Source: a virus. Taken from it: a stretch of 49,073 nt of DNA. This document shows positions 5,896 to 48,691 of the stretch, piece after piece. The notes under the pieces were generated by a model. That model saw nothing but the letters and a program-made list of their open reading frames with translations, was not told where the DNA came from and searched no databases. The stretch spans positions 1-49,073 of IMG/VR virus record IMGVR_UViG_3300046656_000202. One strand, written 5' to 3'. A program made the translations under genes and the position numbers. Numbering within the stretch: the first letter of the stretch is position 1; every line of letters starts with the position of its first letter.

Positions 5896-6293
5896 CCCAA
5901 TGGGAAGCACTCGCACAGTCGCTAGGGTTCCCCGGAGAAGTGGAGATGTGGAAGGAGCTGTACGAGAAGCGAAAACTCTCGATCAGCCAGCTGTCCTTGA
6001 AGTTCGCATGCTCGCCCCACACAGTGAGAAGCAGGCTCAAGTCCCTCCAACTCGAAATCCGAAAGAGGGGCGGGCCTAACAGTGTGAAGGTTCAGGTGAC
6101 GAATGACCTCCTGCTGAAGATCAAACAGCAGGGCATCCCAACGACCGCCAAGCAACTGGGTGTGTCGCCCCAGGCTCTGTACAGCCGTTTGTACTACAGC
6201 CTGGGGATCAAGAAGAAGGACTTGGAGAAGGAAATCACGAAGGCCCTGGAAGAGTCGTCACCGGAGGAGGCTCCGGTGACGGATCCCATCTAA
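5892..6293 (+). CDS. Helix-turn-helix DNA-binding protein
   Basis: A protein of 133 residues from ATG 5892. GAGGG sits six bases before this ATG, and ATGA overlaps the previous stop; an in-frame ATG at 5886 lies right on the GAGGG and is less likely. Two helix-turn-helix-like segments are visible: SISQLSLKFACSPHTVRSRL near residues 30-50 and a second similar one (TTAKQLGVSPQALYSRL) near 90-106. The C-terminus is acidic. It closes the replication operon and overlaps the convergent late block by four bases. It could be a regulator or an origin-binding protein; nothing separates these options. Confidence 0.7.
   Translation: MTQWEALAQSLGFPGEVEMWKELYEKRKLSISQLSLKFACSPHTVRSRLKSLQLEIRKRGGPNSVKVQVTNDLLLKIKQQGIPTTAKQLGVSPQALYSRLYYSLGIKKKDLEKEITKALEESSPEEAPVTDPI
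6256..6281. terminator. Strong hairpin at the convergent gene ends
   Basis: An 11-base-pair perfect stem (6256-6266 with 6271-6281) with the four-base loop GAGG lies inside the last codons of the helix-turn-helix gene. It also lies just downstream of the stop of the 2511-residue gene on the other strand. Two operons about 20 and 28 kb long meet here with no spacer, so a hairpin working in both directions makes sense. No clear run of T follows on either strand, so it may slow polymerase or protect mRNA ends rather than act as a classical intrinsic terminator. Confidence 0.5.
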
Positions 6294-9200
6294 TACGTGT
6301 CTTTGATCGGGGGGAATCCAAGGAAGTACTTGGTTCCCTTCGACCAATCCCCCAGCTGGATCTGGTCCAACGCTCGCATCGTCCGGTTGTACTGCCCGGT
6401 CGGCAGCGGGACGAACTGTTGCCACGAGTTCTTAAACCTCGCTAGTGCAATGGCGTCTGCCGGATCCGCCCCCTTCTTCGCTTGGCCCGTCATGTCGATC
6501 TGACCCTGGACCAGCATGTTCGTCGTTGAAAGGGCTTGCCCCGCAACCTCTACCATCGGACCACCTGTGTACCCGAAGGGGCTGAAGAAGAGCCAGCGGC
6601 CCATATCGACCCCGAACGCCTGGGATCCGATCTCGTACATGGCGGCATTGGCGGCTGCCCAACGAGCGGCGACCTTCATCCGGTTCTTGACGGACCCGCG
6701 GGTCATCGAGTCGTAGGCGTACTCTGCGAAGTAGGACGGCCACGTGCCATACTGTCCGGCCATTCGGCCTACGGTGTTCTGCATCCAGTACGGCGTGACA
6801 CCCCGGCGGTACTTGAACTGGGTGGCGTTCATGTAGTCAATCGACGCAATGTCAGCTGCGACATCAATCTCGCCCGCGTCCAGGGCCTCCTTGATGCCCC
6901 GATGCGTCGGCCCGTCCTTCATGTCCCTCATGTCGATGTACGACTTCTCGAGGAACTCATCCCACGTGATTTTACCCGCGTGGTACTGCTTCCCGAACTT
7001 CTCCGCGAGCTGGTGCTGGGAGTAGTACGCGATGATGTGGTTCAGGTCTTCCACCTTCTTGAACGGTGCCGTACCCATCGAAGCGAGGCGGGTTGTGTTC
7101 GCGATGATCTTCGAAGATGACCCTTCGAGGTTCATGATCATCTCATTGGCACCTCGCGCATCCGCCCACATCTGTGCAGTACGATCCCGGGTGATGATTC
7201 CCCTGTGCAGCAGCTCCTGCTCGAAGTCCGGATCCCGTAGATACTTCATGGCCTGCTTGAACCCATGTGCCCACGGTCCTACGCCGAGGCCGGTTCCCGT
7301 CTGAAGCGTCTGCAACGCGTTCCGCATTACGTTACCAGGACCGAAGGCCATGTTCGCAAAGTACCCGGCGCCCAGGATCACCGACGTAAAGTCAGTTGCA
7401 TCCGCGTCCGAGATGACCCCGATGCCTTCGAGCTTCTCTGCGACCTTCTTGAACACGTTAGCGATCGTGTTCGACACGTGGTCCTGCTGATGCAGCGCAC
7501 TCCGGATGTACGAGTCGAACACGGTGAACGCCCCGGAGTCAGTCAGCGGGGTATCAACCATCTTGTACGCCTGATACGCCTTGCTGATCGCTGACCAGGT
7601 GGGCATCATCTCCTTCTCGTTCGTGAATGCCCGACCCATCCGGATCAAGTTCTTCCGGACGTCCATCTCCCGGTTGCTCAGGATCACCGCGCCTTTCTCG
7701 AAGCTCTTCGACTCCGTTGTCAGAAGCTTAGGAAGCCCGAGACCGCGGGAACCTTTGTAGTCCGAAAAGCTTTGCCCTGACTTACGAATCTGCGGGAGCT
7801 CCTTCAACAAGGCCTCGACGTCCTCCTTGCTGTGACCCATCGTCTCGGTCATCCAGCGGGTAAAGAACTCGTGGGCCTTCTCTCCGAGTGCCAGGGCCGC
7901 ATCGTCCGTGATGTGCGCAATGTCCTGCATCTTGCCCGTCGCGTGCGCATCGAAGACCTGCTGGGCTGCTTCCCGAAGGTCCTGGGTAGTGCCACGGAAC
8001 AACTCATGCATGTTCTCCATGAGGGGTCCCATTGTGGCTTCGACGGCACTCCGCCGGTCTTCGATCGCTGTGAACCACGTAGAGAACGGAATCCCGCTAC
8101 GTACTTCCCACTCCTTGAACATCTCCGCGGGTACACGGAAGAAGTGCGCTAGCTGGTTGAACGGGCCGCTGAAGACGGACTTGAAGCCCTCCGCGATTCG
8201 TTTCTGCTCTGGCGTATCCGGTGGACCAGTAGGAAGACCTCCTCCGCCCCCGCCTTCTCCGCCCCCTCCGGCGTCGCCACCGGTTGCTTCGGCTGCTTCG
8301 GCTGCTTCGTCGCCCTTACCCCAGCCCCAGTCGTGGTACGTTGCATCCTCTGTCTCCGGGTGCATGTCACCGTACCAACCGGGGTGTTCAGGCTCTGCCA
8401 TCCCTGGTCCGGGCGGCATGTGCATACGTGCATCAGGGTGGAACCCGGGGATCACGTCCTCCAAGTCCAACGTCGGATTGTATGGCGGGGGCGGTTCACC
8501 ACCGGCGAACATGGACCCGGGGCCACCACGGCGGGAGAGGAGGATCTCGTTCGGATCGAATGTCCTGTACGGGCCCATCGAGTCCTGTGTCAGTTTCCCG
8601 CGGGTCCAGGACTCCCTCATCCCGTGCTCCCGAAGCCACGAGTAGTGCAGGGCCTGCTGTGGACCCTCCGGCCGTCCGAAGAGGGCTGCGAGACCCCACT
8701 TCTTGTTACTCAGTTCCTGCAGGACGTCCTGGAACGGCTGCTCCGTATTTACTCCGAGACGGGCAACATCTTCCTTCACGGAGCCCAACATCTGGCGGGC
8801 TCTCAATGTATCATAGATAGCAACCGCGTTCTTCCCGTGCCCAGTGCCCTTCAACGGCAGCACTGTGTGGGTCCCGGGAGGAAGATCGTTCATCATCTCA
8901 ATCGCACGGATTGCGTTCGAGATGGACGTCGGATCCTCTCCATGTAGGACGATCAGCGGTCGCTTCCCTGCGATAAGTTCCTTGGTCGCGGTCTCCTGAA
9001 GATCGACCTTGTGGAAGGCACCTGCGTCGACGTCGGCGTCGAAGCTACGGGATTTCCCGATGCCCAACGCCTGTTCGAACGCATCGTCCAGTGGTCTATC
9101 CAGTACCCGTCCGGGCATCTTTTCCACGAAGCGGGCCGCTGCGAGATGTGAGTCAAAGGTCTTCTCCCAAGAGCCGTCGGCAGCGCGGAGGATCATCCGT

Positions 9201-12200
9201 GGTCCATCTACGTACGTCTCGATGCCCCTAGGTGTTGCCTCGTCCCGCAGCCGTGTCAGACTGATCTGGGGTGGCTGATGATCCGCCAGCTCCTGTACGG
9301 TCCAGGGCCGGGTAGACGTCCAATTCGGCTGGTGCTGGGTGTACGCAGCCATCACGGCCACAGGAGTATCCCCATCCACACCGTGTCGTAGTAGGATTCG
9401 GGCCGACTTGATCGCATCCGCCAACTCCGCGTGCCCATGGTAGTCCGGGTGGATCTCGAAGTCCGGCCAGGGTTTCTGCTTCGACCTGTCCTCCGGGCCC
9501 ATCCTGGAGATGCCGATACTGGGTCCCATCTCGATCGGTTCACCCTCGACATCCCATTTCGTAGGAGTCATGCGAGTGAACTCTTTACCCCGGCGGACCT
9601 TCCACGCTGCCCTTGATGACGTCTCGGCGTGCGGGATCGTCTCGCCCGAGTCGACGGACTTGATCTTCCCAGCGAACGCGCTGCCCTTCCGGTAGTACTT
9701 CACGTTCGGTGTGGGGACCTGTGGCTGGAAGGGATTGTCAATCCGAGTCTCTCGACCTGCGAACGGACGGACTTGTGGCTCCCAGCCCCCCGTATAGTAG
9801 TTCCTCGACCACCGCTCATCCCGCATCGGCCCCGGGATGAACCCTGCGTACGGCTTCCACTTCTCGTTCTTCGGCCGGGGGGCGAAGTAAGACAGGTCAC
9901 CTGTTGTGGGATCGCGAACTGGACCAAAGCTGAGTTGCTGCTTCGTAGCTTCCTTCGCTGCCTTTGTCAGAGCGGGGTAAGCTTCGTCCTCACCCTTCCC
10001 TGCCCCGGCGTTCATCCACATCCCCTGCTCGGTTCCCGCTGCCCTAGATGGTCTCGGATCACCGATGCGGGTCCCCTCTATAGCAGTACCGCCACCCTTC
10101 ATCTTGACCAGCTTCGGCTTGACCTCGGAGCCTGCCAGGTGCCCAGTAGCTGAACCGCCCCCGGCATAGCCCGGCTTTGATGGCTGTCTCCTCCAGTCGA
10201 TAGAGTCAAGCCAACCGTACTCCCCGATTGGGTCTCCATAGAAGCCCCGCTCTTCCCAGATCTTCTCCCCGGGTGTCACTGAGAGGGTAATTCCACCCTT
10301 GTGGAAGAACGCTCGCACCTCGTTACCATGCGTCTGCTCATGGTCGACGTTCTTGAAGAACATGGACGTGAAGTAGGACTTCGGATTGAAATCCCCGTAC
10401 CCTTGCATGGAGATCTGTGTCTCGTAGTCCGGCCGTTCCACATGGATCAGTGCATGGCGGGCGGAGCCGTCCGGGTGCGCACTGATCTCAAGGTGTTCAC
10501 CCGGCCGCGGCATCCGTACGACGATGGAGGACAACGGGACCGTCTGGACGTTCCCTTTCGAGTCGCGGGTCCACACATGCGGAACACCCTGCTCGTCGAA
10601 GCCGTGACCGGTAGTGTTCCGATCTTCTTCTTCCTGGACCTGACGAGGGCCGACCTTTACTGCCTTCTTGGATCGCTTCGCTTCCTCCTGGCGGGCTTTC
10701 CATCGTGCTGCCCGCTCCGCCCACTCCTCGTCTGTCTCTTCCCGCATCTGCCGTGGCACATTACGGGACGGCGCTGGAGGAGGCATCAAATCTGCTTGGG
10801 TGTAGATCTTGGTTGTGTCCTCACCCATTTCCTGATTCAACTGGTCGGCCAGACCCCCGGGCTTCCACAGCTGTGCAACAGAATCGTCGACCTCGGACTC
10901 CTCAGCGTGTGCTGCCATGCCCCGATCTGCCGCTGCGAACTCGCGTTGGGCTTGTCGCTGATCTGCTTGATTCGCAGCAAGCCGCTCGAGGAACTCCTTC
11001 ATCACTTCACGGCGGGGCCGGGTAATGATATCAAAGACGTCCTCAGGGGAGTTGATCATGCCCAGACGATCGGCTGTTATCGCGATAACCTCGGCGAGCG
11101 ATTTACCTCCCCTTTGTGGGTCGAGATACGATGTGCCACCGTCCGCTTTGATCCTGTGGAACAGATCCATCGCGAACTCACGTGGAGTGAAGTCTGCATC
11201 GATGTTCTTTGGCGTGAACGGGGAAGGACCTTCATCCCCTCCACCTCCGCCACCCGAAGGAGGTTCTCCGCCCCCGCTCGGTCGGTCGACCCAGAACTCC
11301 TCATCCGGATTGCGACCGGTGCCCCTGGACTCCGTCGCTGCCCACTGGTCAACGCCTGTCGGCGGGGCCGCAGCTACCCGAGCCCGCAGCCGTGTATTTG
11401 GGTCCTCCTTTCGATGGATACGACCGGTACTCGGATTCAGAGACTCCGTTGCTTCATCGATTGTGCCACCAGGGACGAATGGACGGGTACCTGCGGCATC
11501 GTATGTACGCGGCAGCGGGGACTCGACTACCGTGTGGACTGCGGTGCCATCCGCAGTGACAACGTGCACCGTGTCACCCGGCTTGGGCATGGTCCCGCCG
11601 AACGCAGCCGTGTTCACCTTTGCGGCGCCGGGGACCATCTCCTTCGCGTCGGTGATCGGACGGTACATCAAGTTCAAGAACCTGGACTTGGTGCCCTCGT
11701 TCCCGATCTGAATGTTATCCACCTTAATCGGAGTGCCTTGCTCCCACGCCTTGCTGATCTGTTCCCTGATCGTGGCAACCTGTTTGGCGAACTGCCCATG
11801 GTCCTGCGGGTTCGATGTGAGGTGCACCGGTGTTAGAGGCTGATCACCGATCGACAGATTGAACTTGACACCGAAGTTGTCCCCGAGCATCGGGTCCAGC
11901 ACGAGGTTCTTCGGGAAGTGCTTTTGGATCTCGTTCTCGTACACCTTCGCGGCCGCATTGTACAGAGGCGACATCCGTACATTCGCGTCTTCTGCTCCGA
12001 TGTTGATCACTGCCTTCGCGGTTGCGATGTTACCGTTCGCAGGATTCGCCCGCATCGCGATTAGAGCGTCTTCCGCCTGATCGGCAGCTTTTCCGGTAGC
12101 CTTTGCTACACGATCTACGGTGTCGTGATACACACCGCCCAACTCCTCCTGTAGACCTGTTCCGATGTGCCGGAAGGCCAGATCCATTGCACCGAACAGT

Positions 12201-13825
12201 GCCAGATTCTTCCCGATCATCACAGAACGGGACTCACCAGGCTCGATGTTCGCGAACGCACTGAAGGCGGTGGTACCAACGGCTGCTGCAACGAACTTCC
12301 GAGCGAAGGGTGACTTCACAGCAAGACGTGCGAATTTGTCCGCCCCCTTGATGATCGGCTCACCTGGGATGAACGAACCTACGACCTCACCAGCCAAGGC
12401 AGGGGTCGCCGTCAGCAAGCCTCGTGTGGTGTCCGTCGGAGGACCGAACGGGCCGGACATCGCCTTGGTCATCTCATCCGTCGACAGGTAGCCCTTCAGC
12501 TTCTGTTGCTGCTCCTGCTGCGCCAGGGTCAACGACTTCCACGTGTTCGGCGCAAGGGATCCGAACGGACCAATAATCGCCTGTGCGAGACCCAGCGCTG
12601 CTGATCGACCGGATGCAGCTGCCAGATCCCCTGGGGCCATGTACGTGTTGACTTTCGGCCCCACTGCGTCTTCTGCCTCCTGACCTGGATGGGTGTAGTC
12701 GATCCCCATCTTCGAGTGGTCCTGGGCAAACTGCCGCATCTGCTGAACGGTTGGGCCAGGCATCGGGCGGAGAGAGTCGAGGATCTCCTTCATCTCCACG
12801 TCTTCGGAGACGGTCCGCGGGCCAAGGCTGTTATCCTTGGGTGGTGCGATCCCGAACAGGGTTGGACGCCCCTCAGGTTCCGGTATGGCCTCTGACGCCG
12901 GATTCGTGACCTTGACGGACCGGGGATCTGTGAACGACGCATTGGGCCCTCCTGCGAAAGGGAACGTCCCAGGGGGAGGCATCGGCGGCTGCATCGGCCC
13001 CGGCTGCGTCATCGGCATCTGCTGCGGGGACATCTGTACACCAGGTTGTCCGGGTGCGACCGGAGCCGCCGGCCCTGACATCCGCGGTGCCCGGCCCATA
13101 GGGAATTGCTGTGGCGGCATCGGCGCTTGCGGAGCCGACATGGGCCCGGAGACACCAGGGTCGATACGTGGGTCAAACCGCTGCGGGGAAGTATCTGTTG
13201 GAGGCATCTCCTGTTGCGGAACATCCTCCACTGGCATCGTGCTTGGAGGAGCCGGAACAGCTGCCGCTACGGGGCCCGGTTCCATCCTCCGCTGATCGGA
13301 AACGGGAGGTGTATCGTCCGGCGCCTGGAAATCCGCATACTCGGCTTTGCGGCGGCGGATGAGGCCTTTGTCAGGTTCGCCTTTGATTGTCGCAGAGGCG
13401 GTGAAGTCGTGCTCCCCGAGGACCTTCCCGGCGTTCATCTTCTTCGCCAGGTTCTCCCCCGCCGCAGGGCTGTTCCAGGAGACGGAGATCAGGGAATCGT
13501 ACTGATGCTGGTTGACCGGGATCTTGAGGGCGTTGTCCAGCCGGGGCTTGTAGATCGTATGGAGCTGACGATCGAACTCCTCGTCCGCCTCCTCCTGCGT
13601 GATGTGCATCCCCTCGTGGACTTTCTTACCCTTCCAGTACTGCATGCCGTAGCCGATGGCCCAGTCGCCAGCGTCTTCGTACGCATCTTCCTGGAAGTTC
13701 CCCTCACGGGGCCCCTTGAGCTTCTCGATCAGCTCGGGTGAAGGCTCCATCTCGCTCGCCCAGCGATAGTTCGAGTTCTTTAGGAGCTCTGCCGCCCGCG
13801 CGTTGATCTCGTCTTTGGTTGGCAT
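6290..13825 (-). CDS. Giant multidomain virion protein with N-terminal GH24 muramidase-like domain (polyvalent / internal virion type)
   Basis: At 2511 residues this gene takes about 15% of the genome. Residues 35-140 resemble GH24 phage lysozymes: the EGNF glutamate (E41), ED at 50-51, then GDWAIGYG at 53-60, where GH24 enzymes have a catalytic threonine and this protein has alanine. A Pro/Gln/Met-rich linker follows (about 170-330). A hydrophobic Ala/Gly-rich part comes after it, then Gly-rich linkers, an HEQTH motif at 1162-1166 (HExxH pattern), and a helical C-terminal region from about 1870. The layout, many modules in one chain at the end of a podovirus late operon, fits proteins ejected with the DNA (T7 gp16-like role, large polyvalent proteins). 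It follows the preceding gene directly (TAG then ATG). Specific activities other than the muramidase-like fold are not proven. Confidence 0.8.
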   Translation of the reverse strand: MPTKDEINARAAELLKNSNYRWASEMEPSPELIEKLKGPREGNFQEDAYEDAGDWAIGYGMQYWKGKKVHEGMHITQEEADEEFDRQLHTIYKPRLDNALKIPVNQHQYDSLISVSWNSPAAGENLAKKMNAGKVLGEHDFTASATIKGEPDKGLIRRRKAEYADFQAPDDTPPVSDQRRMEPGPVAAAVPAPPSTMPVEDVPQQEMPPTDTSPQRFDPRIDPGVSGPMSAPQAPMPPQQFPMGRAPRMSGPAAPVAPGQPGVQMSPQQMPMTQPGPMQPPMPPPGTFPFAGGPNASFTDPRSVKVTNPASEAIPEPEGRPTLFGIAPPKDNSLGPRTVSEDVEMKEILDSLRPMPGPTVQQMRQFAQDHSKMGIDYTHPGQEAEDAVGPKVNTYMAPGDLAAASGRSAALGLAQAIIGPFGSLAPNTWKSLTLAQQEQQQKLKGYLSTDEMTKAMSGPFGPPTDTTRGLLTATPALAGEVVGSFIPGEPIIKGADKFARLAVKSPFARKFVAAAVGTTAFSAFANIEPGESRSVMIGKNLALFGAMDLAFRHIGTGLQEELGGVYHDTVDRVAKATGKAADQAEDALIAMRANPANGNIATAKAVINIGAEDANVRMSPLYNAAAKVYENEIQKHFPKNLVLDPMLGDNFGVKFNLSIGDQPLTPVHLTSNPQDHGQFAKQVATIREQISKAWEQGTPIKVDNIQIGNEGTKSRFLNLMYRPITDAKEMVPGAAKVNTAAFGGTMPKPGDTVHVVTADGTAVHTVVESPLPRTYDAAGTRPFVPGGTIDEATESLNPSTGRIHRKEDPNTRLRARVAAAPPTGVDQWAATESRGTGRNPDEEFWVDRPSGGGEPPSGGGGGGDEGPSPFTPKNIDADFTPREFAMDLFHRIKADGGTSYLDPQRGGKSLAEVIAITADRLGMINSPEDVFDIITRPRREVMKEFLERLAANQADQRQAQREFAAADRGMAAHAEESEVDDSVAQLWKPGGLADQLNQEMGEDTTKIYTQADLMPPPAPSRNVPRQMREETDEEWAERAARWKARQEEAKRSKKAVKVGPRQVQEEEDRNTTGHGFDEQGVPHVWTRDSKGNVQTVPLSSIVVRMPRPGEHLEISAHPDGSARHALIHVERPDYETQISMQGYGDFNPKSYFTSMFFKNVDHEQTHGNEVRAFFHKGGITLSVTPGEKIWEERGFYGDPIGEYGWLDSIDWRRQPSKPGYAGGGSATGHLAGSEVKPKLVKMKGGGTAIEGTRIGDPRPSRAAGTEQGMWMNAGAGKGEDEAYPALTKAAKEATKQQLSFGPVRDPTTGDLSYFAPRPKNEKWKPYAGFIPGPMRDERWSRNYYTGGWEPQVRPFAGRETRIDNPFQPQVPTPNVKYYRKGSAFAGKIKSVDSGETIPHAETSSRAAWKVRRGKEFTRMTPTKWDVEGEPIEMGPSIGISRMGPEDRSKQKPWPDFEIHPDYHGHAELADAIKSARILLRHGVDGDTPVAVMAAYTQHQPNWTSTRPWTVQELADHQPPQISLTRLRDEATPRGIETYVDGPRMILRAADGSWEKTFDSHLAAARFVEKMPGRVLDRPLDDAFEQALGIGKSRSFDADVDAGAFHKVDLQETATKELIAGKRPLIVLHGEDPTSISNAIRAIEMMNDLPPGTHTVLPLKGTGHGKNAVAIYDTLRARQMLGSVKEDVARLGVNTEQPFQDVLQELSNKKWGLAALFGRPEGPQQALHYSWLREHGMRESWTRGKLTQDSMGPYRTFDPNEILLSRRGGPGSMFAGGEPPPPYNPTLDLEDVIPGFHPDARMHMPPGPGMAEPEHPGWYGDMHPETEDATYHDWGWGKGDEAAEAAEATGGDAGGGGEGGGGGGLPTGPPDTPEQKRIAEGFKSVFSGPFNQLAHFFRVPAEMFKEWEVRSGIPFSTWFTAIEDRRSAVEATMGPLMENMHELFRGTTQDLREAAQQVFDAHATGKMQDIAHITDDAALALGEKAHEFFTRWMTETMGHSKEDVEALLKELPQIRKSGQSFSDYKGSRGLGLPKLLTTESKSFEKGAVILSNREMDVRKNLIRMGRAFTNEKEMMPTWSAISKAYQAYKMVDTPLTDSGAFTVFDSYIRSALHQQDHVSNTIANVFKKVAEKLEGIGVISDADATDFTSVILGAGYFANMAFGPGNVMRNALQTLQTGTGLGVGPWAHGFKQAMKYLRDPDFEQELLHRGIITRDRTAQMWADARGANEMIMNLEGSSSKIIANTTRLASMGTAPFKKVEDLNHIIAYYSQHQLAEKFGKQYHAGKITWDEFLEKSYIDMRDMKDGPTHRGIKEALDAGEIDVAADIASIDYMNATQFKYRRGVTPYWMQNTVGRMAGQYGTWPSYFAEYAYDSMTRGSVKNRMKVAARWAAANAAMYEIGSQAFGVDMGRWLFFSPFGYTGGPMVEVAGQALSTTNMLVQGQIDMTGQAKKGADPADAIALARFKNSWQQFVPLPTGQYNRTMRALDQIQLGDWSKGTKYFLGFPPIKDTY

Positions 13826-33962: not shown

Positions 33963-34487
33963 TTACTCACCGAGGCCATTACGGGCACCTTCGGTGCGCC
34001 CGCTACCAACAGTGACGACACCGTGGGATTCCTGCATCCGACGGAAGATTTCGGCCACGGCTCCCTCAGTGAGGACGATCTGAGCGGAGTTGCTGATCTT
34101 TTTCTGCGCTGCGTACCCGCCCCGATCAAGCCAATCCTGCGCGATTGCGACTTGCAGCTTCTCGTCTTCGGTGGATTCTGCGATTTCCAGGAGTCGGGAA
34201 GCCATCTCCCCGCTGAATTCCTGGATCATCTCATCCACGCCCGCATGAACATGGCGCTCATACGGGGTCCACTCGGCCTTTTTCTGGGTGAAGACCCAGT
34301 TCTCGTAGGCCTGGTACTTAGGTTGCTTGATCCAGACGCGCACGGACGCAGGAGAACGCCCTACCCGTTGAGCTAGCTGCGGAACGCTGATTTCGGGTAC
34401 CTCAGCACGGAGCTCCGCCATCATCTTCCATTCCATACGGACTGGGTCCGGGTAGAGCGGGATCGGCGGAGATGTAACTTGGGTCAT
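33963..34487 (-). CDS. terS: Terminase small subunit
   Basis: I place the start at ATG 34487, giving 174 residues. The frame stays open up to 34541, but that part contains the promoter and would begin before the predicted transcript start. The N-terminal half has a helix-turn-helix, SVPQLAQRVGRSPASVRVWI, followed by a helical oligomerisation part (VHAGVDEMIQEFSGEMASRL). Small subunits bind the packaging site and activate the large subunit. It is the first gene of the late operon and is directly followed by terL. Confidence 0.8.
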   Translation of the reverse strand: MTQVTSPPIPLYPDPVRMEWKMMAELRAEVPEISVPQLAQRVGRSPASVRVWIKQPKYQAYENWVFTQKKAEWTPYERHVHAGVDEMIQEFSGEMASRLLEIAESTEDEKLQVAIAQDWLDRGGYAAQKKISNSAQIVLTEGAVAEIFRRMQESHGVVTVGSGRTEGARNGLGE

Positions 34488-34512
34488 GATACCTGTGCTC
34501 TTTGTTCCGTCC

Positions 34513-34541
34513 ATTATATAGCGGATCCCGCGGCAAAGCAA
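34513..34541 (-). promoter_or_regulatory. Late operon promoter (sigma-70 type)
   Basis: On the minus strand TTGCTT (34541-34536) and a perfect TATAAT (34518-34513) are separated by 17 bases. Transcription would start near 34506, about 19 bases before the terS ATG at 34487, where a short leader carries AGG. This supports the shorter terS start. It faces away from the plus-strand early promoters. The same -35 hexamer, TTGCTT, occurs in the promoter at 37168. Confidence 0.7.
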
Positions 34542-34698
34542 CCGGCAAGGGGTTTATACTACGTACTTGGATGTCACAGTGAAAAATCGGGTACTATTTT
34601 TGACGTGCGTACCTAAAGGTAGGACCTAAAGGTCCGAGGGTCCCCCCATGGTAGCAGCATACGATCGTACAGCAGGACTAGAGCTGTGCCAGTTCGAG

Positions 34699-34710
34699 CC
34701 ATATAGAGAG
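34699..34710 (+). promoter_or_regulatory. CCATATAGAGAG element, copy 1
   Basis: CCATATAGAGAG, seven variable bases and then GAGGTGACTATG lead straight into the start of the 60-residue gene. The identical arrangement occurs at 35022, and a variant at 36223. TATAGA may be the -10 box of a promoter with a very short leader; a clear -35 is not visible. A host RNA polymerase with a phage or host activator is one explanation. Confidence 0.5.
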
Positions 34711-34726
34711 CTAAGGCGAGGTGACT

Positions 34727-34909
34727 ATGAGCGATGCTAAGCGTACGTGGCAGAAGAAGACCGTCGAGATGGAAGTCAAGCCTGGCGTGAAGAGCAACTG
34801 CGTCCTGGTGAAGATCGTCGCCAAGGATGGCAAGCTGCAGAAGTACGTGATGAAGCCCGTAAGCGAGTTCTGGGGCGAAGACGACGAGAAGTCCACGATC
34901 AACTGGTAG
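34727..34909 (+). CDS. Small basic protein, first gene of the rightward early region
   Basis: The 60-residue protein (starting MSDAKRTWQKKTVEMEV) is Lys-rich with alternating strands. The start is ATG 34727, behind GAGGTG. An in-frame GTG at 34721 is part of that ribosome site and unlikely. It has its own promoter element and its own terminator directly behind it, so it is a one-gene transcript. That arrangement and its position next to the late promoter suggest an early regulator or takeover protein. No family is recognised. Confidence 0.62.
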   Translation: MSDAKRTWQKKTVEMEVKPGVKSNCVLVKIVAKDGKLQKYVMKPVSEFWGEDDEKSTINW

Positions 34910-34915
34910 CCTAGT

Positions 34916-34952
34916 GACGGTCGTAGGAGCAATCCTACGATCGTCTTTTTTT
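34916..34952 (+). terminator. Intrinsic terminator with GCAA loop
   Basis: A 13-base-pair stem (34916-34928 with 34933-34945) containing one G-T pair closes on the stable four-base loop GCAA and runs into seven T. It ends the transcript of the 60-residue gene. The wobble pair would become an A-C mismatch in the opposite strand, so it works best rightward. Confidence 0.9.
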
Positions 34953-35021
34953 GCTACTACGCCAGGGCTTTCTTTCAGAGCAGGCCATTCCCCGTACGAG
35001 CTTAGATCATAGCGTGTTGTA

Positions 35022-35033
35022 CCATATAGAGAG
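35022..35033 (+). promoter_or_regulatory. CCATATAGAGAG element, copy 2
   Basis: Identical to copy 1 in its 12 bases and again followed after seven bases by GAGGTGACTATG, the ribosome site and start of a 25-residue membrane peptide. The preceding terminator ends 70 bases upstream, so a new transcript must start here. This fits a promoter. Confidence 0.55.
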
Positions 35034-35049
35034 TGATTGTGAGGTGACT

Positions 35050-35127
35050 ATGCAATGGTTATCAGTCGTCGAAGCAGTCGCGTTGATCGTGTGTTTCTCA
35101 ATCGTCATCTATCAGTCGCAGGAGTAG
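35050..35127 (+). CDS. Tiny membrane peptide (25 residues)
   Basis: ATG 35050 is directly preceded by GAGGTGACT, the same start region as the gene at 34727. The peptide has one hydrophobic segment, VEAVALIVCFSIVIYQ, able to cross the membrane once. The gene stop lies inside the ribosome site of the next gene (CAGGAGTAG). It is too short for most gene finders, but the copied start region argues that it is translated. Confidence 0.55.
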   Translation: MQWLSVVEAVALIVCFSIVIYQSQE

Positions 35128-35130
35128 CGT

Positions 35131-35343
35131 ATGAAGAACAAGATGCAGCTCGAAGATCCGTTCCGCGGTCGGTTCGATGCAGTCAAGAATGCACTGCACA
35201 ACGTCCTCCAGCAGCCGTTCAGTGGCACGGTCGGCGAAGCGTGCAACATCGGCAACGCAGCGACGACGGCACTCCGCATCATCGACGGGCAGTACGACAT
35301 CAGCGAGCTCTCGTACAAGATCACACAGGTCCCACAGGAGTAA
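35131..35343 (+). CDS. Small unknown early protein
   Basis: The 70-residue, mostly helical protein contains RFDAVKNALHNVLQQPF and ISELSYKITQ. AGGAG stands six to seven bases before ATG 35131. It belongs to a compact run of five small genes (35050-36199) with good ribosome sites and almost no spacing. The run is typical of phage early genes that act on the host. No family is recognised. Confidence 0.58.
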   Translation: MKNKMQLEDPFRGRFDAVKNALHNVLQQPFSGTVGEACNIGNAATTALRIIDGQYDISELSYKITQVPQE

Positions 35344-35345
35344 CG

Positions 35346-35555
35346 ATGCATCTCATGCGGTTCGGACTCACAGACCACGAAGGCGAAGCGTGGACAGACG
35401 ATCATCCGATGACCATCCAGCACGTCGAAAAGACCTGGGATCAACCAGGCGGCGTGTGGTTCTTGACAGTCTACTGCTCCAACGGTTGGTACTTCGTCCT
35501 CACTCCGGACGACATGAAGCAGTTTATCGAAGCGTCATTCAGCTGGGGAGTCTAA
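35346..35555 (+). CDS. Small unknown early protein
   Basis: A 69-residue protein with two beta hairpins likely (VWFLTVYCSNGWYFVLTP) and a short acidic C-terminal helix (DDMKQFIEASF). ATG 35346 follows CAGGAGTAACG, so the stop of the previous gene lies inside its ribosome site. It is rich in aromatic residues. The function is unknown. Confidence 0.6.
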   Translation: MHLMRFGLTDHEGEAWTDDHPMTIQHVEKTWDQPGGVWFLTVYCSNGWYFVLTPDDMKQFIEASFSWGV

Positions 35556-35557
35556 CG

Positions 35558-35728
35558 ATGCAGGTGCCAGAACTCGACAAAGAACTCCTCGCGGAAGCAA
35601 TCGCAACGGCGATGATCCACACGACAGACGAGAGCGGCGACTTCGTCGGCGACTTGTGGATCATGGTCGATCGTCTCGGAATCAGAGCGATGGTCGAAGA
35701 GCAGATCAAAGCTCTCTCAGGAGAATAG
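35558..35728 (+). CDS. Small acidic helical protein
   Basis: The 56-residue protein is helical and acidic (KELLAEAIATAMIHTTDESG, LGIRAMVEEQIKALSGE). ATG 35558 lies behind GGGGAGTCTAACG, giving a ribosome site of proper spacing. It is short and missed by a 60-residue limit. Function unknown. Confidence 0.58.
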   Translation: MQVPELDKELLAEAIATAMIHTTDESGDFVGDLWIMVDRLGIRAMVEEQIKALSGE

Positions 35729-35729
35729 C

Positions 35730-35996
35730 ATGGTACCACAGATCACAGTCAAGTCGGACTTCGACGGCTACTTCGAGGGCCTGGTCAAGCACTGGGTCAA
35801 CGACAAAGCGAACAACGGGGGAACGTTCAAATGCGAAGTGATCGAGGTCTCCGCAGGGCCTTACCGAGCAGCAGCAGTCTCATACGAGCGCAAGGAATCC
35901 GGACGTGTGCTCGCCTTGGACTTCTACTCAGCGATCAGACGTGGATTCGGATCGTTGAGCGAGCAGGACGTGATCGACATCCAGGAGCTCATGTGA
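35730..35996 (+). CDS. Small unknown early protein
   Basis: An 88-residue protein with mixed strands and helices (CEVIEVSAGPYRAAAVSYER) and an acidic C-terminal helix (LSEQDVIDIQELM). CAGGAG lies before ATG 35730. Its TGA stop overlaps the next ATG. Function unknown. Confidence 0.58.
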   Translation: MVPQITVKSDFDGYFEGLVKHWVNDKANNGGTFKCEVIEVSAGPYRAAAVSYERKESGRVLALDFYSAIRRGFGSLSEQDVIDIQELM

Positions 35997-36199
35997 TGAA
36001 CATCGACGTCCGTGGACCACATCCGATCGTGATCATCGGCTTGAAGACATACAACTTCGCACTCGAGGAGGACATTCAGGCGTTCTGCTGGATCGAACTG
36101 CAGTACATCATCATCGACGAAGCGGCCTGGGATCAGCTCAGCCCGTACATCGATGCTTACAACACGCACGCAGACGACGGAGGTGCCGACCACACATAG
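35996..36199 (+). CDS. Small acidic early protein
   Basis: The 67-residue protein begins MNIDVRGPHPIVIIGLK and is acidic at its C-terminus (AYNTHADDGGADHT). The overlap TGATG with the previous gene indicates coupled translation. It is the last gene before the third promoter-like element. Function unknown. Confidence 0.58.
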   Translation: MNIDVRGPHPIVIIGLKTYNFALEEDIQAFCWIELQYIIIDEAAWDQLSPYIDAYNTHADDGGADHT

Positions 36200-36222
36200 A
36201 ACGTTGGGATCAAGTGTTCATA

Positions 36223-36234
36223 CCAGATAGAGAG
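36223..36234 (+). promoter_or_regulatory. CCAGATAGAGAG element, copy 3 (variant)
   Basis: This copy differs from the first two by one base (G for T in the sixth place) and is followed by GTTGTGATAGTG rather than by the GAGGTGACTATG start. TTGGGA lies 16 bases before GATAGA. An operator-like inverted repeat follows directly downstream, before the next gene. Confidence 0.45.
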
Positions 36235-36247
36235 TAGTTGTGATAGT

Positions 36248-36272
36248 GTTAACGGGCAGGGTGCACGTTAAC
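36248..36272 (+). promoter_or_regulatory. Operator candidate, GTTAACG inverted repeat
   Basis: GTTAACG (36248-36254) and CGTTAAC (36266-36272) form a perfect seven-base inverted repeat with 11 bases between centres of the arms. It lies 14 bases behind the copy 3 element and before the 82-residue gene. This is the classical layout of a repressor site that covers the transcription start. GGTTAACG-like sequences also occur in the late intergenic regions near 26420 and 32305. Confidence 0.45.
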
Positions 36273-36296
36273 ATCTATCAGTCATAGGAGTCAGAG

Positions 36297-36545
36297 ATGG
36301 CTAAGCACGAGTTGTCGTACGCGTCGATGGAGCAGGGCCACAAGGACGGTTGGAAAGAGATCGGTGGCACGACCGAGCTGCTCCGGATGGTCAAGCAGGG
36401 TTGGTACGCAGTCTGCGAGCGCAAGGAGCAGAACGACAAGAACACCATGATCAGGGACATGGTCAAGAACGACCCGCGTCTCAAGACGATCAGGGAACAG
36501 GCGAAGGCGAAGCTCAAGGCAGCTCGCGAGGCAGGCAAGAAGTAG
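36297..36545 (+). CDS. Small basic helical protein
   Basis: The 82-residue protein (starting MAKHELSYASMEQGHKDGW) ends in a strongly basic helix (LKTIREQAKAKLKAAREAGK). ATG 36297 stands behind ATAGGAG. It has its own promoter-like element and operator candidate in front and a strong terminator behind, again a single-gene transcript. A nucleic-acid-binding role fits the basic tail but is not proven. Confidence 0.6.
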   Translation: MAKHELSYASMEQGHKDGWKEIGGTTELLRMVKQGWYAVCERKEQNDKNTMIRDMVKNDPRLKTIREQAKAKLKAAREAGKK

Positions 36546-36555
36546 GTCGACATCA

Positions 36556-36594
36556 GAGCGGCGGTGCGAGCAATCGCATCGTCGCTCTTTTTTT
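36556..36594 (+). terminator. Intrinsic terminator with GCAA loop
   Basis: A 14-base-pair stem (36556-36569 with 36574-36587) with two G-T pairs closes on GCAA and runs into seven T. It is built like the terminator at 34916 and ends the transcript of the 82-residue gene. Both wobble pairs have G in the 5' arm, so the structure favours rightward termination. Confidence 0.9.
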
Positions 36595-37167
36595 GTTCTT
36601 CGTGCCAGGGCGTCATCGCTAAAGTCGGACTTAGCTCGTCAGCAAGCCGCCTCCACTAATATCGACCCACCTAAAACATCCCTGGGCGGCCCTGATCCCG
36701 CCCGCCGCAGGTAGGAGATCCGTGGGCGCCAGGGCTTTGTTCCCTGAGCTGGCGCCTGCAGTGGTATGAACGTGAGCCGCTGCCGACGACGTTGCTTCAA
36801 TGTTCCCTGAGCAGATGCATCCTTTGCCGCATTGGATCATAGCTCGCGTGATCGTTCGTGAAAGATTCGTCCCTTGCCTCGTTCGTAAATGATACTAATT
36901 GCGAGCACTTTTACGAACCGATGTTGATTAAGTCCTTTGTTCTCAACGGGTTACGATTGTGTGCCAGTTCGCTTGCCGTATATAAGTATATAGTATAAAA
37001 AAGCATATATCATATATACCTACACCCGTCGATCCCCTCTTTGAGACAAGACGGCATGGCATTCGGCCGGCAGAACATTGTATCCTGTTGTGCCTAAAGG
37101 AGTTACAGCGTACTTGTGATCGGGGCGGTGTCGTAAACATTGATCCAGCCCCATCAATAGAAAGACG
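36595..37167. other. Non-coding region with inverted repeats and A+T-rich core; origin candidate
   Basis: I find no convincing gene here on either strand. GTTCGTAAA (36881-36889) and TTTACGAAC (36910-36918) form a perfect nine-base inverted repeat. The stretch 36978-37019 is nearly pure A/T in a G+C-rich genome and starts with GTATATA and ends with TATATAC. CGCCAGGGCTTT occurs near 36728 and also at 34959. An easily melted core with nearby inverted repeats, in the largest gap of the genome, is what a phage origin often looks like; a cluster of early promoters is the other possibility. Confidence 0.4.
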
Positions 37168-37197
37168 TTGCTTTTGAACAGTGAGGTGTGATATAAT
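37168..37197 (+). promoter_or_regulatory. Sigma-70-type promoter
   Basis: TTGCTT (37168-37173), an 18-base spacer and TATAAT (37192-37197) preceded by TGA, an extended -10. The leader runs about 80 bases to ATG 37284. It contains the stem GCGGA/TCCGC and the sequence CGGGGGCGGATC, which recurs in the leader at 40798. An AAGGAG lies before the gene. Confidence 0.72.
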
Positions 37198-37283
37198 CAT
37201 CATAGAATCACAACACGGGGGCGGATCATAGCTAACTCGTCCGCGTTCCGAAGGGACCCGAAAGCGCTCACAAGGAGAATCAC

Positions 37284-37778
37284 ATGTCGAAGACGTTCCG
37301 TACCACACCCGAAGTCACCTCGATCATTAACGGCCGCGGGGTCATCGAACCCCCGTCATACCGGAAGCAGTGGACTTCCAGTCGCCTCGTGGTGATGGAG
37401 GACGGTACCACAGTGCCCCTGCTGTACATCCTAGCAGCACACAAGTTCGGTGCCTTCGACCCGAAAGAGAAGATGCCCTACTGGGGCGACAAGATGTGTA
37501 CCAACGAATCCCTGGACAACGTCGAGCTGCTCCCTATGAACCCTGACCGGCGTCCCCGCCAGAACTCCTACGGGGTGCCCTCCGGGACTCCCGAATATTT
37601 GAAGCGATACCGTGCTGCGAACAAGGACAAGATGAAGACGTACCATCAACGGTACTACCGGAAGATGCGGGAGGTCTATGAGGCCGCTCTCCACGCTGCA
37701 CCCTCTACGACACCCATCCTCGACTCCCAGTTCAGCAAGTTGATGGAGATCATCCCGAAACCGCCCGAAGAGGAGTAA
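37284..37778 (+). CDS. HNH-like fold remnant with basic repeat tail
   Basis: The 164-residue protein has a middle section, YWGDKMCTNESLDNVELLP, that resembles the end of HNH endonuclease domains (DGDxxNNxxxNLELV). The metal histidines are not in the usual places, so activity is doubtful. A Lys/Arg/Tyr-rich segment follows (YLKRYRAANKDKMKTYHQRY), similar in style to the 124-residue protein at 40916. AAGGAG precedes ATG 37284. It could be a DNA-binding protein or a degraded homing nuclease. Confidence 0.6.
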   Translation: MSKTFRTTPEVTSIINGRGVIEPPSYRKQWTSSRLVVMEDGTTVPLLYILAAHKFGAFDPKEKMPYWGDKMCTNESLDNVELLPMNPDRRPRQNSYGVPSGTPEYLKRYRAANKDKMKTYHQRYYRKMREVYEAALHAAPSTTPILDSQFSKLMEIIPKPPEEE

Positions 37779-41514: not shown

Positions 41515-42020
41515 AGATCCCGGACTACCTCGACCCGCTGGTCGGCTGGCGGGCCTGGTCGAACGTGAACCGCGAAGGGCACCTCGTCCCTCTCGTCAGC
41601 GTTCACCAGGTCTGGCCGAAACGGATCCCCGCACAAGCGATGTGCGAGTGCTGCAAGCAATTCGCCAAGCCGTCGATGCACAACCAGATCGGCTTCTACG
41701 CGTTCAAGAAGGTCATCGACCTGCTCGACGAAACGGTCGTTCAGAACCGCTTCGCCCATCGGTACGGGAGCTACGTCTTCGGTCAGGTCTACATGTGGGG
41801 CACGCTGGTCGAATGCGGACAACGCGTGGCCGAGATCAACAACGACACGGGATACAGGAACGAAGTCAAAGGCTGGCGGGCAGAATTCGCCTATCCAAAA
41901 CGCCTTATGACCGAAAACGCTGACCTCGCAGCGCAGCTCCAAGACGATTACGGAGTGCCCTGTGAAGTCGGCCGCGCGATCGACATCTACAACGAACTCC
42001 TACGGAGGGCTCAACCGTGA
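41511..42020 (+). CDS. Unknown protein directly before queC
   Basis: The 169-residue protein opens with YLDPLVGWRAW, which I associate with a family of unnamed proteins of bacteria and phages that have a WRAW start and Cys/His pairs. Here the cysteines are AMCECCKQF at residues 44-50. The middle, IGFYAFKKVIDLLDE and YVFGQVYMWGTLVECG, is similar to that style (GIYAFK). Its stop overlaps the queC start, so it is translated with the deazaguanine pathway, which makes a link worth testing. No enzyme motif is seen. Confidence 0.6.
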   Translation: MKIPDYLDPLVGWRAWSNVNREGHLVPLVSVHQVWPKRIPAQAMCECCKQFAKPSMHNQIGFYAFKKVIDLLDETVVQNRFAHRYGSYVFGQVYMWGTLVECGQRVAEINNDTGYRNEVKGWRAEFAYPKRLMTENADLAAQLQDDYGVPCEVGRAIDIYNELLRRAQP

Positions 42021-42685
42021 GTAAAGCAGTCGTCCTCTTGTCAGGCGGAATGGACTCCACCACCGTCCTGGCTTTGGCTCAGTACCTCGACAACGACGTA
42101 CACGCCCTGTCGTTCAACTACGGGCAGCGCCACCGCACCGAGCTGATCTCGGCGTCGGTAATCGCACAGCACTTCAACGTCCCACATACGATCATCGACC
42201 TGAGCGGATCGCGGATCTTCAGCGGCTCGGACTCATCCCTGGTCAACCCGGACGTCAAAGTGCCCGAAGGTCACTACGCCGACGAGTCGATGAAGGGCAC
42301 CGTCGTTCCAAATCGGAACATGATGATGCTCAGCATTGCGGCAGCGTTTGCGATCTCGAACGGGACCGAACAGATCTTCTACGGTGCTCACGCTGGTGAC
42401 CACGCAATCTACCCTGACTGCCGACCACAGTTCGTCAAGGCGATGCAGAAGGCCCTCGAGCTGTGCGACTGGAAGCAGGTCAAGCTGGTCGTGCCGTTCC
42501 TCAACCAGAGCAAGGCGGACATCGTCACCAAGGGTCACTCGCTGCACGTGCCGTGGGACATGACATACTCCTGCTACAAGGGAGCCAAGGGCGTGCACTG
42601 CGGTGTCTGTGGAACGTGTACCGAGCGCCGCGAGGCGTTCTTCGACGCTGGCGTCACTGATCCGACGGTATACGAGAACACCTAG
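42017..42685 (+). CDS. queC: QueC, 7-cyano-7-deazaguanine (preQ0) synthase
   Basis: The 222-residue enzyme turns 7-carboxy-7-deazaguanine into preQ0 with ATP and ammonia. SGGMDSTT (residues 8-15) is the PP-loop that binds ATP, and FNYGQRH and VPNRNMMMLS follow in the proper order. The zinc cysteines CYKGAKGVHCGVCGTC keep the C-x8-C-x2-C-x2-C spacing of the family. The length equals normal QueC. There is no extra GAT (glutamine amidotransferase) domain as in phage 9g-type proteins, so the product is likely preQ0 itself. The next gene starts at the stop. Confidence 0.95.
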   Translation: MSKAVVLLSGGMDSTTVLALAQYLDNDVHALSFNYGQRHRTELISASVIAQHFNVPHTIIDLSGSRIFSGSDSSLVNPDVKVPEGHYADESMKGTVVPNRNMMMLSIAAAFAISNGTEQIFYGAHAGDHAIYPDCRPQFVKAMQKALELCDWKQVKLVVPFLNQSKADIVTKGHSLHVPWDMTYSCYKGAKGVHCGVCGTCTERREAFFDAGVTDPTVYENT

Positions 42686-43306: not shown

Positions 43307-44118
43307 TCCTCACCTGGTGGGAAGTCGAGGAACTCGAGGAGCACTTCCATGGCAGAGAGGACATCTGGACCTGGGACGAAGGATCCAAGTGCTGGCTCCG
43401 AACGAATAACGAAGGAGACGCCCTTCTGGGTCTCCAGATCCTGGGTCCTAACGCAGCGGGACCCTACCGCAAGTACATGCTCAAGTGGGTCTCACTCGGA
43501 TGGGACGAAACCACTTGTGCTGATTACATCGTCATGCTCTGTACCAAGTGGACCAGCTACGGCTTCCGGCAGTCCGTCAAAGACTTCCTCGTCGAGGACG
43601 ATGCAGTCAAGATGGACCCGAAACTCGCCGACGCAGTCGCTGTTGCCATCTCCAAGATGGAGCAAGAGCCCGCGCCTGACCCTGAAGTACTACAGATCCC
43701 GACGCAACGGGAAATCTGGCCCGACTTGAGCGGCTGCGTGGTCATCCCTTCGATCATCGAACGGACCATTCGAATGACCGGTCTGGTCGGTGGTGGATGG
43801 CTCTCGATTCGGTACCAAGGAGAGATGCTCCGTGTTCGGCTTAGCATCCCTTCTGGGGAAACCGGTGGATACGATCACCCCTTCGAGGGATACATCAGGC
43901 CGCGGGATGGCAACGTCCCCATGGCCTGCTCATACTTGTTCGGACTTAACACGCCAGCCAAAGGAGCAGAGAATGCCGCTAGTACTGAGAATGACCTTCA
44001 TCTACCCACCGAGCCAGGAAATCCATCAACAGATGCAGGAGACGCTGAACGTCCCGATGAACGACCTGCAGCTGTCGGAGACGGCGATGATCCTCCAGAT
44101 GGAACAGTGGCTGAATGA
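43303..44118 (+). CDS. Unknown protein with a low-complexity tail overlapping the next gene
   Basis: The 271-residue frame starts at ATG 43303, overlapping the previous stop (ATGA). The first 220 residues look like a folded protein (WEVEELEEHFHGREDIWTW, YRKYMLKWVSLGWDET, VGGGWLSIRYQGEMLRVRLS). The last about 48 residues are Pro/Asp/Ala/Glu-rich and lie over the next gene in another frame. Either the tail is a late extension over the neighbour, or a frame error removed an earlier stop. Function unknown. Confidence 0.58.
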   Translation: MILTWWEVEELEEHFHGREDIWTWDEGSKCWLRTNNEGDALLGLQILGPNAAGPYRKYMLKWVSLGWDETTCADYIVMLCTKWTSYGFRQSVKDFLVEDDAVKMDPKLADAVAVAISKMEQEPAPDPEVLQIPTQREIWPDLSGCVVIPSIIERTIRMTGLVGGGWLSIRYQGEMLRVRLSIPSGETGGYDHPFEGYIRPRDGNVPMACSYLFGLNTPAKGAENAASTENDLHLPTEPGNPSTDAGDAERPDERPAAVGDGDDPPDGTVAE

Positions 44119-44161
44119 GCACAGCAAGATCCGCGTCCACTTCGACTTGCACGAGGACTGA
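43973..44161 (+). CDS. Small protein overlapping the preceding gene by 146 bases
   Basis: The 62-residue protein starts at ATG 43973 behind AAAGGAG, a strong ribosome site inside the tail of the previous frame. The product has a normal composition (starting MPLVLRMTFIYPPSQEIHQQ, with LSETAMILQMEQWLNEHSK). This makes it more believable than the tail it overlaps. Its stop ends just before the next gene. Function unknown. Confidence 0.6.
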   Translation: MPLVLRMTFIYPPSQEIHQQMQETLNVPMNDLQLSETAMILQMEQWLNEHSKIRVHFDLHED

Positions 44162-44162
44162 C

Positions 44163-44387
44163 ATGGCCAAACCCAAGTTCTACGACAAGCAGAAGAACGT
44201 CGAGGCCGCTGACGCCCTGTTCATGGACCTGGCGGCGACGCTCAAGTCCGCCAAGACGCTGAACACGGACGACCCGAACTACCAGCGGCGGATCGCGGTC
44301 GCTATGACCAACGCCGAGCAGGCCCAGTTGTGGTACAACGCGGCCATGGATGCACTCGAGTCCTTCGAGGAGGACGACAATGCATAG
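44163..44387 (+). CDS. Small helical protein before the nuclease gene
   Basis: A 74-residue protein (MAKPKFYDKQKNVEAADALF) that is nearly all helix with an acidic end (DALESFEEDDNA). It starts one base after the previous stop and its 3' end overlaps the nuclease start by eight bases. It could be a partner of the nuclease. Function unknown. Confidence 0.57.
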   Translation: MAKPKFYDKQKNVEAADALFMDLAATLKSAKTLNTDDPNYQRRIAVAMTNAEQAQLWYNAAMDALESFEEDDNA

Positions 44388-48109: not shown

Positions 48110-48318
48110 TGGAGACCTTCATCTGCGAACGCCGCGGAATCAAGCTGACCGTGACGATGCAGACAACGACCGGTGACGCTCACTCCATCCTCAGCGACGT
48201 CGGGTCACCCGCTGTCCGACGGCTGCTGGACTCGAAGTTCGAAACCCTCATCGCGAAATTCCTCGCCGATGTGGCCTTACTCCATGATCCGGGTGCCGCT
48301 GATGCTCCTCACCTTTGA
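48106..48318 (+). CDS. Small unknown protein before queD
   Basis: A 70-residue protein from ATG 48106, overlapping the previous stop (ATGA). It shows FICERRGIKLTVTMQTTTGD and a helical end (LLDSKFETLIAKFLADVALL). It lies between the MazZ-like gene and queD and its end overlaps queD by 17 bases. Function unknown, though the place suggests a link to purine or pterin steps. Confidence 0.57.
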   Translation: MMETFICERRGIKLTVTMQTTTGDAHSILSDVGSPAVRRLLDSKFETLIAKFLADVALLHDPGAADAPHL

Positions 48319-48691
48319 CTACGAACTGCCCATGGGGCACCGACTGATGAACCACCAGGGCAAGTGTCGTTACCTACACGGTCATAACTATCTCATCCGC
48401 GTGGAGCTCCAGGGCCACGTGGACATGACCGGCATGGTCATCGACTTCTCCGACCTGAAGACCCGTGTCAAGGGCATCTTCGAACGGTGGGATCACGCCT
48501 TTGCTCTCCACGAGCTTGACCCCGCCGCCGAAGAGATCCGTGCCTACGCTCGACTGATCCTCCTGCCCGTTCACCCGACGGCGGAGGAGCTCGCAATCAC
48601 CTGGCGGGACGAACTGCAGAAGTCCTTCCCGATCCATCACGTCTACATCGCGGTCAAGGAGACGCGGGACTGTGGGGTGGTCCTTGAGTGA
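48302..48691 (+). CDS. queD: QueD, 6-carboxy-5,6,7,8-tetrahydropterin synthase
   Basis: The 129-residue enzyme uses dihydroneopterin triphosphate from FolE to make 6-carboxytetrahydropterin, the second step to preQ0. The motif GKCRYLHGHNY (catalytic Cys, then zinc HGH) is the hallmark that separates QueD from other pterin synthases. The first zinc histidine is in MGHRL, and WDHAFAL and VKETRDCG complete the site. I choose ATG 48302; an ATG at 48284 is open as well but has no ribosome site. GGGTG lies upstream. The stop overlaps queE. Confidence 0.93.
   Translation: MLLTFDYELPMGHRLMNHQGKCRYLHGHNYLIRVELQGHVDMTGMVIDFSDLKTRVKGIFERWDHAFALHELDPAAEEIRAYARLILLPVHPTAEELAITWRDELQKSFPIHHVYIAVKETRDCGVVLE

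Follow-up and report, generated by a model that had tools for sequence, protein, structure and literature searches.

A repeated, putative start-region element before three small-gene units of an uncultured phage, with cytosine-poor leaders and cytosine-free operons among its relatives

Small genes behind copies of one element

The DNA analyzed here (the window) is a 49,073-base IMG/VR virus record from an uncultured phage. Its late genes are read leftward from 34.5 kb; its small genes are read rightward. The features considered below are as follows.

34532..34647, +, conserved intergenic block to the right of the terminase small subunit (blastn, 73.7% to L009 and 78% to L007)
34632-34647, +, GTCCGAGGGTCCCCCC, the end of the conserved block (hallmark comparison)
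34692..34717, +, element copy 1, GTTC-N3-CCATATAGAGAG plus a 7-base spacer (12-mer at 34699-34710)
34718..34729, +, GAGGTGACTATG, consisting of the Shine-Dalgarno-like GAGGTGA and the p60 start codon
34727..34909, +, p60, 60 aa, from a family of 20 ORFs in the clade
34916..34952, +, intrinsic terminator behind p60 (terminator scan)
35022..35049, +, element copy 2 with TTGTG and GAGGTGACT (12-mer at 35022-35033)
35050..35127, +, p25, a hydrophobic 25-aa peptide, first gene of an operon that reaches 36199
35131..36199, +, remainder of the p25-pD operon, ORFs of 70, 69, 56, 88, and 67 aa
36214..36243, +, element copy 3 (variant 12-mer) with TTGTGA (12-mer at 36223-36234)
36241..36280, +, RNA hairpin of the p82 leader, immediately adjoining copy 3 (self-complement blastn match; fold z -3.6)
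36297..36545, +, p82, 82 aa, basic and predicted to be helical, from a family of 28 ORFs (43 clade regions searched)
36555..36595, +, intrinsic terminator behind p82 (terminator scan)

A preliminary description of this DNA had reported the same 12 bases, a seven-base spacer, and GAGGTGACTATG at 34699 and 35022, with a one-base variant at 36223. Exact searches confirm this arrangement. The 12-mer CCATATAGAGAG is found on the + strand at 34699-34710 and 35022-35033, and a copy with one mismatch, CCAGATAGAGAG, lies at 36223-36234. Two sites in the window, 34699 and 35022, fit the pattern [12 bases]-N7-GAGGTGACTATG, and no others do; their 12 bases are identical. In its fuller copies the element can be written GTTC-N6/7-[C/G]ATAGAGAG-...-TTGTG. 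Copy 1 lacks TTGTG, and both copy 1 and copy 2 directly adjoin GAGGTGACTATG, which is missing from copy 3; there a hairpin leader of ~60 nt instead extends to the start codon. Copies 2 and 3 share ATAGAGAGTnnTTGTGA, a sequence with no other exact match in the window (one further match has 3 mismatches), and CATCTATCAGTC downstream is also common to p25 and p82.

With up to 2 mismatches allowed, the 12-mer matches the window 4 times against 2.0 expected and is not rare alone; thus, the significance of the element rests on its position and register. When leaders were compared without gaps, z was 7.6 for p60/p25 and 7.7 for p25/p82, and 0 of 100 dinucleotide shuffles reached either value. The p60/p82 pair gave z 2.1, which was reached by 7 of 100 shuffles.

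The units behind the three copies (p60, the p25-pD operon of six small ORFs at 35050-36199, and p82) otherwise have little in common. The second copy does lead into a gene, as first described, but this gene is the 25-residue p25, which heads the operon to 36199. Because the p60 terminator precedes it, p25 needs a separate start of its own. The terminators described behind the 60- and 82-residue genes were both recovered by the scan. The single-gene transcripts deduced from them are likely for p60, but hold only in part for p82: no terminator turned up between p82 and the operon before it, so p82 is not necessarily transcribed only as a single gene. Neither p60 nor p82 had a usable match in PHROGs or Foldseek, a Pfam search with p60 was without a match, and so was an Rfam search of the window. 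The p60 structure is predicted, with middling model confidence, to have three strands. Judged by eye, p25 resembles a 27-aa peptide of L007.

Other genes of the window include a leftward ORF of 2,511 residues (6290-13825) with an N-terminal phage lysozyme domain. A 90-aa ORF at 44115-44387 weakly matches the Acb2/Tad1 hairpin domain (PF24729, 25.2 bits with a cut-off of 27) and is a possible anti-defence protein. ORFs resembling FolE, QueC, and QueD, named by eye from their sequences (289-852, 42017-42685, and 48173-48691), suggest 7-deazaguanine DNA.

Element versions in related genomes

A terminase search yielded 14 loci and a profile search 48, although many of the relatives are contig fragments. 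The exact element is present in five contigs that are nearly identical to the window and is absent from the diverged relatives compared. A scan of all IMG/VR with ATATAGAGAGN{5,10}GAGGTGA returned 39 stretches, and only the five near-identical contigs contain two matches. These results support the earlier view of the element as genome-specific. Beyond what was first described, several of the diverged relatives, which lack the 12-mer, carry versions of their own at the same places, and the leaders are poor in cytosine, which becomes extreme in some relatives.

Leader repetition was assessed with 27 hand-picked leaders from 12 genomes. L009 is the closest of the diverged relatives, with 82% terminase identity. 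It does not contain the 12-mer but has its own element, of the form GTTCG..GAAATAGAAG, before its homologues of p60, p25, and p82. Its copies at the three places are GTTCGTGGAGAAATAGAAG, GTTCGCGAGAAAATAGAAG, and GTTCGGGAGGAAATAGAAG, and its leader pairs have z of 2.8, 3.8, and 11.2. A third form is repeated in L110 before the first gene, p60, and p82 (z 4.4, 5.3, and 0.6), and L102 has a repeat built on a G-rich hallmark before p60 and p82 (z 3.8). Leader pairs with z>3 make up 7 of 19 same-genome pairs versus ~14% of the 242 cross-genome pairs of different modules. Same-genome repetition was weak in L115, L100, and L085, and the comparison revealed none that was convincing in L007, L111, L113, or L089.

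The G-rich hallmark itself has a weak version at window 34632-34647 and appears as TTTGGGGGTnnGGGG in many relatives. A CTAAAG or GTATA block stands ~30 nt to its left. Possible roles for the hallmark are those of a start region, an origin, or a genome end.

The terminase is only distantly related to those of sequenced phages, for example ICP2 and CW02 of the Zobellviridae (tblastn, ~23% identity). These phages are also ~49 kb in size, but the neighbours of their terminases differ. A literature search on Zobellviridae promoters and RNA polymerase gave nothing bearing on the element.

A candidate phage-specific promoter

A simple scan of 34300-37400 found no sigma70-like TTGACA-16/18-TATAAT pair on the + strand, in keeping with the earlier remark that no normal -35 is seen; on the other strand there are 2 such sites against 1.8 expected. 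The TATAGA and GATAGA hexamers of the element are poor sigma70 -10 boxes. A separate site at window 37168-37197, TTGCTT-N18-TATAAT (read by eye), precedes a 164-aa gene, and its GTGATATAAT recurs in L009 and L011 (also by eye).

In the 16 p82 leaders that were folded, the ribosome site is separated from the start region by a hairpin whose sequence is quite different in each lineage. Relative to shuffles, these leaders have a mean fold z of -2.3, and 9 of the 16 fall below -2; for leaders of first genes and p60, the mean is -0.3, with 2 of 14 below -2. L011 and L081 each carry the p82 homologue as two tandem copies, and every copy has TATAAT immediately upstream of its 5′ hairpin. The intervening distance, measured by eye, is ~3-6 nt in three of the four homologues and ~1-11 nt in the fourth, depending on the choice of stem. 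In the window, L009, L110, and L102, the four genomes whose p82 leader has a repeat in common with another leader at z>3, the genome's own repeat ends within ~8 nt of the start of the hairpin, and ATAGA lies ~9 nt before the hairpin in the window (both by eye). The fact that the element stands beside the p82 hairpin where L011 and L081 have TATAAT suggests that it substitutes for a -10 box. The two arrangements share the gene family and the position just upstream of a 5′ hairpin. They differ in that L011 and L081 have a perfect TATAAT, whereas the window has TATAGA/GATAGA within a longer repeated element.

We consider it somewhat better than an even chance that p60, the p25-pD operon, and p82 are each transcribed from a phage-specific promoter whose -10 and start region is the element, probably by host RNA polymerase with a helper. 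The preliminary description had proposed a promoter with a very short leader, and the comparison with L011 and L081, together with the abutment of element and hairpin, speaks indirectly in favour of this. The repetition, the recurrence at syntenic places, the position beside the hairpin, the terminators, and the low C are observed; a transcription start at the element, and what recognizes it, are inferred. The element has no recognizable -35, and host RNA polymerase would probably read it assisted by a factor from the phage or the host. A start around TTGTG would place the Shine-Dalgarno sequence almost at the 5′ end of the p25 and p60 transcripts, and would cause the p82 RNA to begin with its hairpin. 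The recognition sequence would drift fast, such that several relatives hold their own version before the same genes, and a cytosine-poor first transcribed stretch would be part of the design. If the element is indeed a promoter, then this clade of uncultured phages, with no recognizable polymerase of its own, has a fast-drifting start signal for which the nearest relatives give a matched comparison.

Phage promoters that lack a -35 and need an activator exist, T4 middle promoters being an example. These likewise have a -10-like element without a -35, are phage-specific, and are reused before several units. Here, in contrast, MotA/AsiA-like genes were not identified, the signal drifts between close relatives, and the first stretch is cytosine-poor. 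No known promoter activator was matched among the window proteins scanned, and a host lookup found no terminase relative in the GTDB genome collection.

Some observations fit other explanations. Transcription might begin further upstream, with the repeat acting in the RNA as a leader element whose scarcity of cytosine keeps the ribosome site unstructured or which binds a regulator; p82, for instance, could bind its own leader. The direct contact of copies 1 and 2 with GAGGTGACTATG, the cytosine-poor leaders throughout the clade, and the conserved hairpin leader before p82 would all suit such a role. Copy 3, however, is ~60 nt from its start codon, across a hairpin, and distant homologues show a -10 box at that place. 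We regard an RNA-level function as unlikely. We also considered a promoter for a single-subunit RNA polymerase of the T7/SP6 type, which the general look of the sequence, its compact length, and the missing -35 recall. The TATA and GAGAG of the element resemble TATAGGGAGA and SP6 ATAGAAG, and T7 and SP6 promoters share the compact form with ATA followed by a G-A-rich start. The cognate polymerase was not found in the phage records searched (PF00940 in 0 of 10 records, the window included, and phrog_414 in 0 of 4, with positive T7 controls for both), although these records may be incomplete. The negative search for a single-subunit polymerase in the 10 records makes such a promoter very unlikely, even if the host or a co-infecting phage could supply the enzyme.

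Copy 1 lies ~50 nt to the right of the conserved block, which counts against the promoter reading, and this block could itself hold the p60 promoter. Recombination between modules could also have copied sequence that is no promoter, leaving the leaders alike as a remnant of duplication with no function beyond the ribosome site. The shared CATCTATCAGTC of the p25 and p82 modules is in line with this, and the Shine-Dalgarno sequence explains part of the match. The recurrence at three places in L009 and L110 with different sequences would nevertheless require repeated independent copying, and we consider this origin doubtful.

Cytosine-poor leaders and cytosine-free first operons

Two of the four + strand runs of at least 24 nt without cytosine (C-free) in the 49 kb of the window are at element copies 2 (35024-35047) and 3 (36225-36252, the longest on this strand). 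When related regions were aligned on the hallmark, the mean C fraction fell from ~0.29 to 0.08 and that of G rose to 0.43, and C made up at most 4% of the first 50 nt after the hallmark in 16 of 27 regions. These 27 of 43 regions omit the near-duplicates L105, L082, L097, L014, and L114, which an earlier comparison of the relatives had also set aside. Also omitted are L104, L108, L106, and L103, three regions shorter than 600 nt, and four that did not match the hallmark.

In some relatives, the sense strand is C-free over far longer tracts: 1,140 nt in L090, 652 in L110, 570 in L115, 367 in L088, 337 in L109, and 227 in L091, the runs of L088 and L109 extending to the contig end. The tracts lie in the first rightward operon, to the right of the terminase small subunit, and span several genes. 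In L110 and L115 they contain a membrane-type gene and p60, and the terminator stem marks the end of the tract. No such tract was seen in the 4 kb upstream of the ICP2 and CW02 terminases, where the longest C-free runs are 26 and 31 nt; in a third distant phage, ctLwi270, the longest in the corresponding 4 kb is 47 nt. A tie between the window element and these operons is proposed from the position and low C that they have in common. We view the operons as mattering more than the element, as one nucleotide is absolutely avoided over up to 1,140 coding and noncoding bases. A limited search of the literature found no report of cytosine-free or cytosine-depleted phage operons.

Where the sense strand has no C, codons for Ala, Pro, His, Gln, and Thr are impossible. 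In 15 low-C genes from seven contigs, which were selected for being C-free, 928 codons include 3 C; Pro and Gln are absent, and Ala, His, and Thr nearly so. Avoidance on this scale, which gives up five amino acids, implies a strong pressure, which we could not match to any described one. A C-to-T mutational process on the non-template strand would be strand-specific and could be strongest at the presumed transcription start, as seen here. However, pure C-to-T change would make GTT the commonest Val codon, whereas GTG (51) and GTA (37) exceed GTT (28) and GTC (0); the counts for GTA, GTG, GTT, and GTC are 13, 35, 38, and 40 in the controls, which are mechanical ORFs and possibly include some false ones. 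Arg is retained as AGR (47, with 0 CGN), compared with 44 AGR and 120 CGN in the same controls. This codon choice rejects pure C-to-T mutation and indicates selection against C, making a mutational origin highly improbable. The C content also increases away from the hallmark in 18 of the 21 loci that had sufficient sequence (one is constant at zero), but a leftward control shows a rise too (median rho 0.26, 27 loci), which makes the gradient weak evidence on its own.

Restriction-site avoidance was set aside by reasoning, as it would not ban every single C. Avoidance of Rho suits untranslated leaders but, by the same kind of reasoning, does not require C-free coding DNA. R-loop initiation, for example to prime replication, is a quite unlikely source of the tracts. 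G clusters at the start and a G content of ~40% are in its favour, but of 29 loci, only 7 have sequence near the site that fits the rule published in PMC4489302 (G clusters followed by 100 nt or more of at least 40% G), and the window, L090, L110, and L115 are not among them.

A family-wide design can be imagined, though we rate it as quite unlikely, that keeps cytidine out of the phage RNA made first, so that the first proteins could form even if CTP were missing or poisoned. The whole first operon of the extreme relatives, untranslated parts included, could be transcribed from A, G, and U alone, with C first needed in the terminator. One benefit might be escape from the chain-terminating ddhCTP made by prokaryotic viperins (PMC12926258). 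Such CTP avoidance fits L090, L110, and L115, but is a poor fit to L012, L113, L085, and the p82 genes, which are C-poor only in the leader or first part. With C avoided over whole operons in some loci and only near the start in others, a role close to the start would be the common part.
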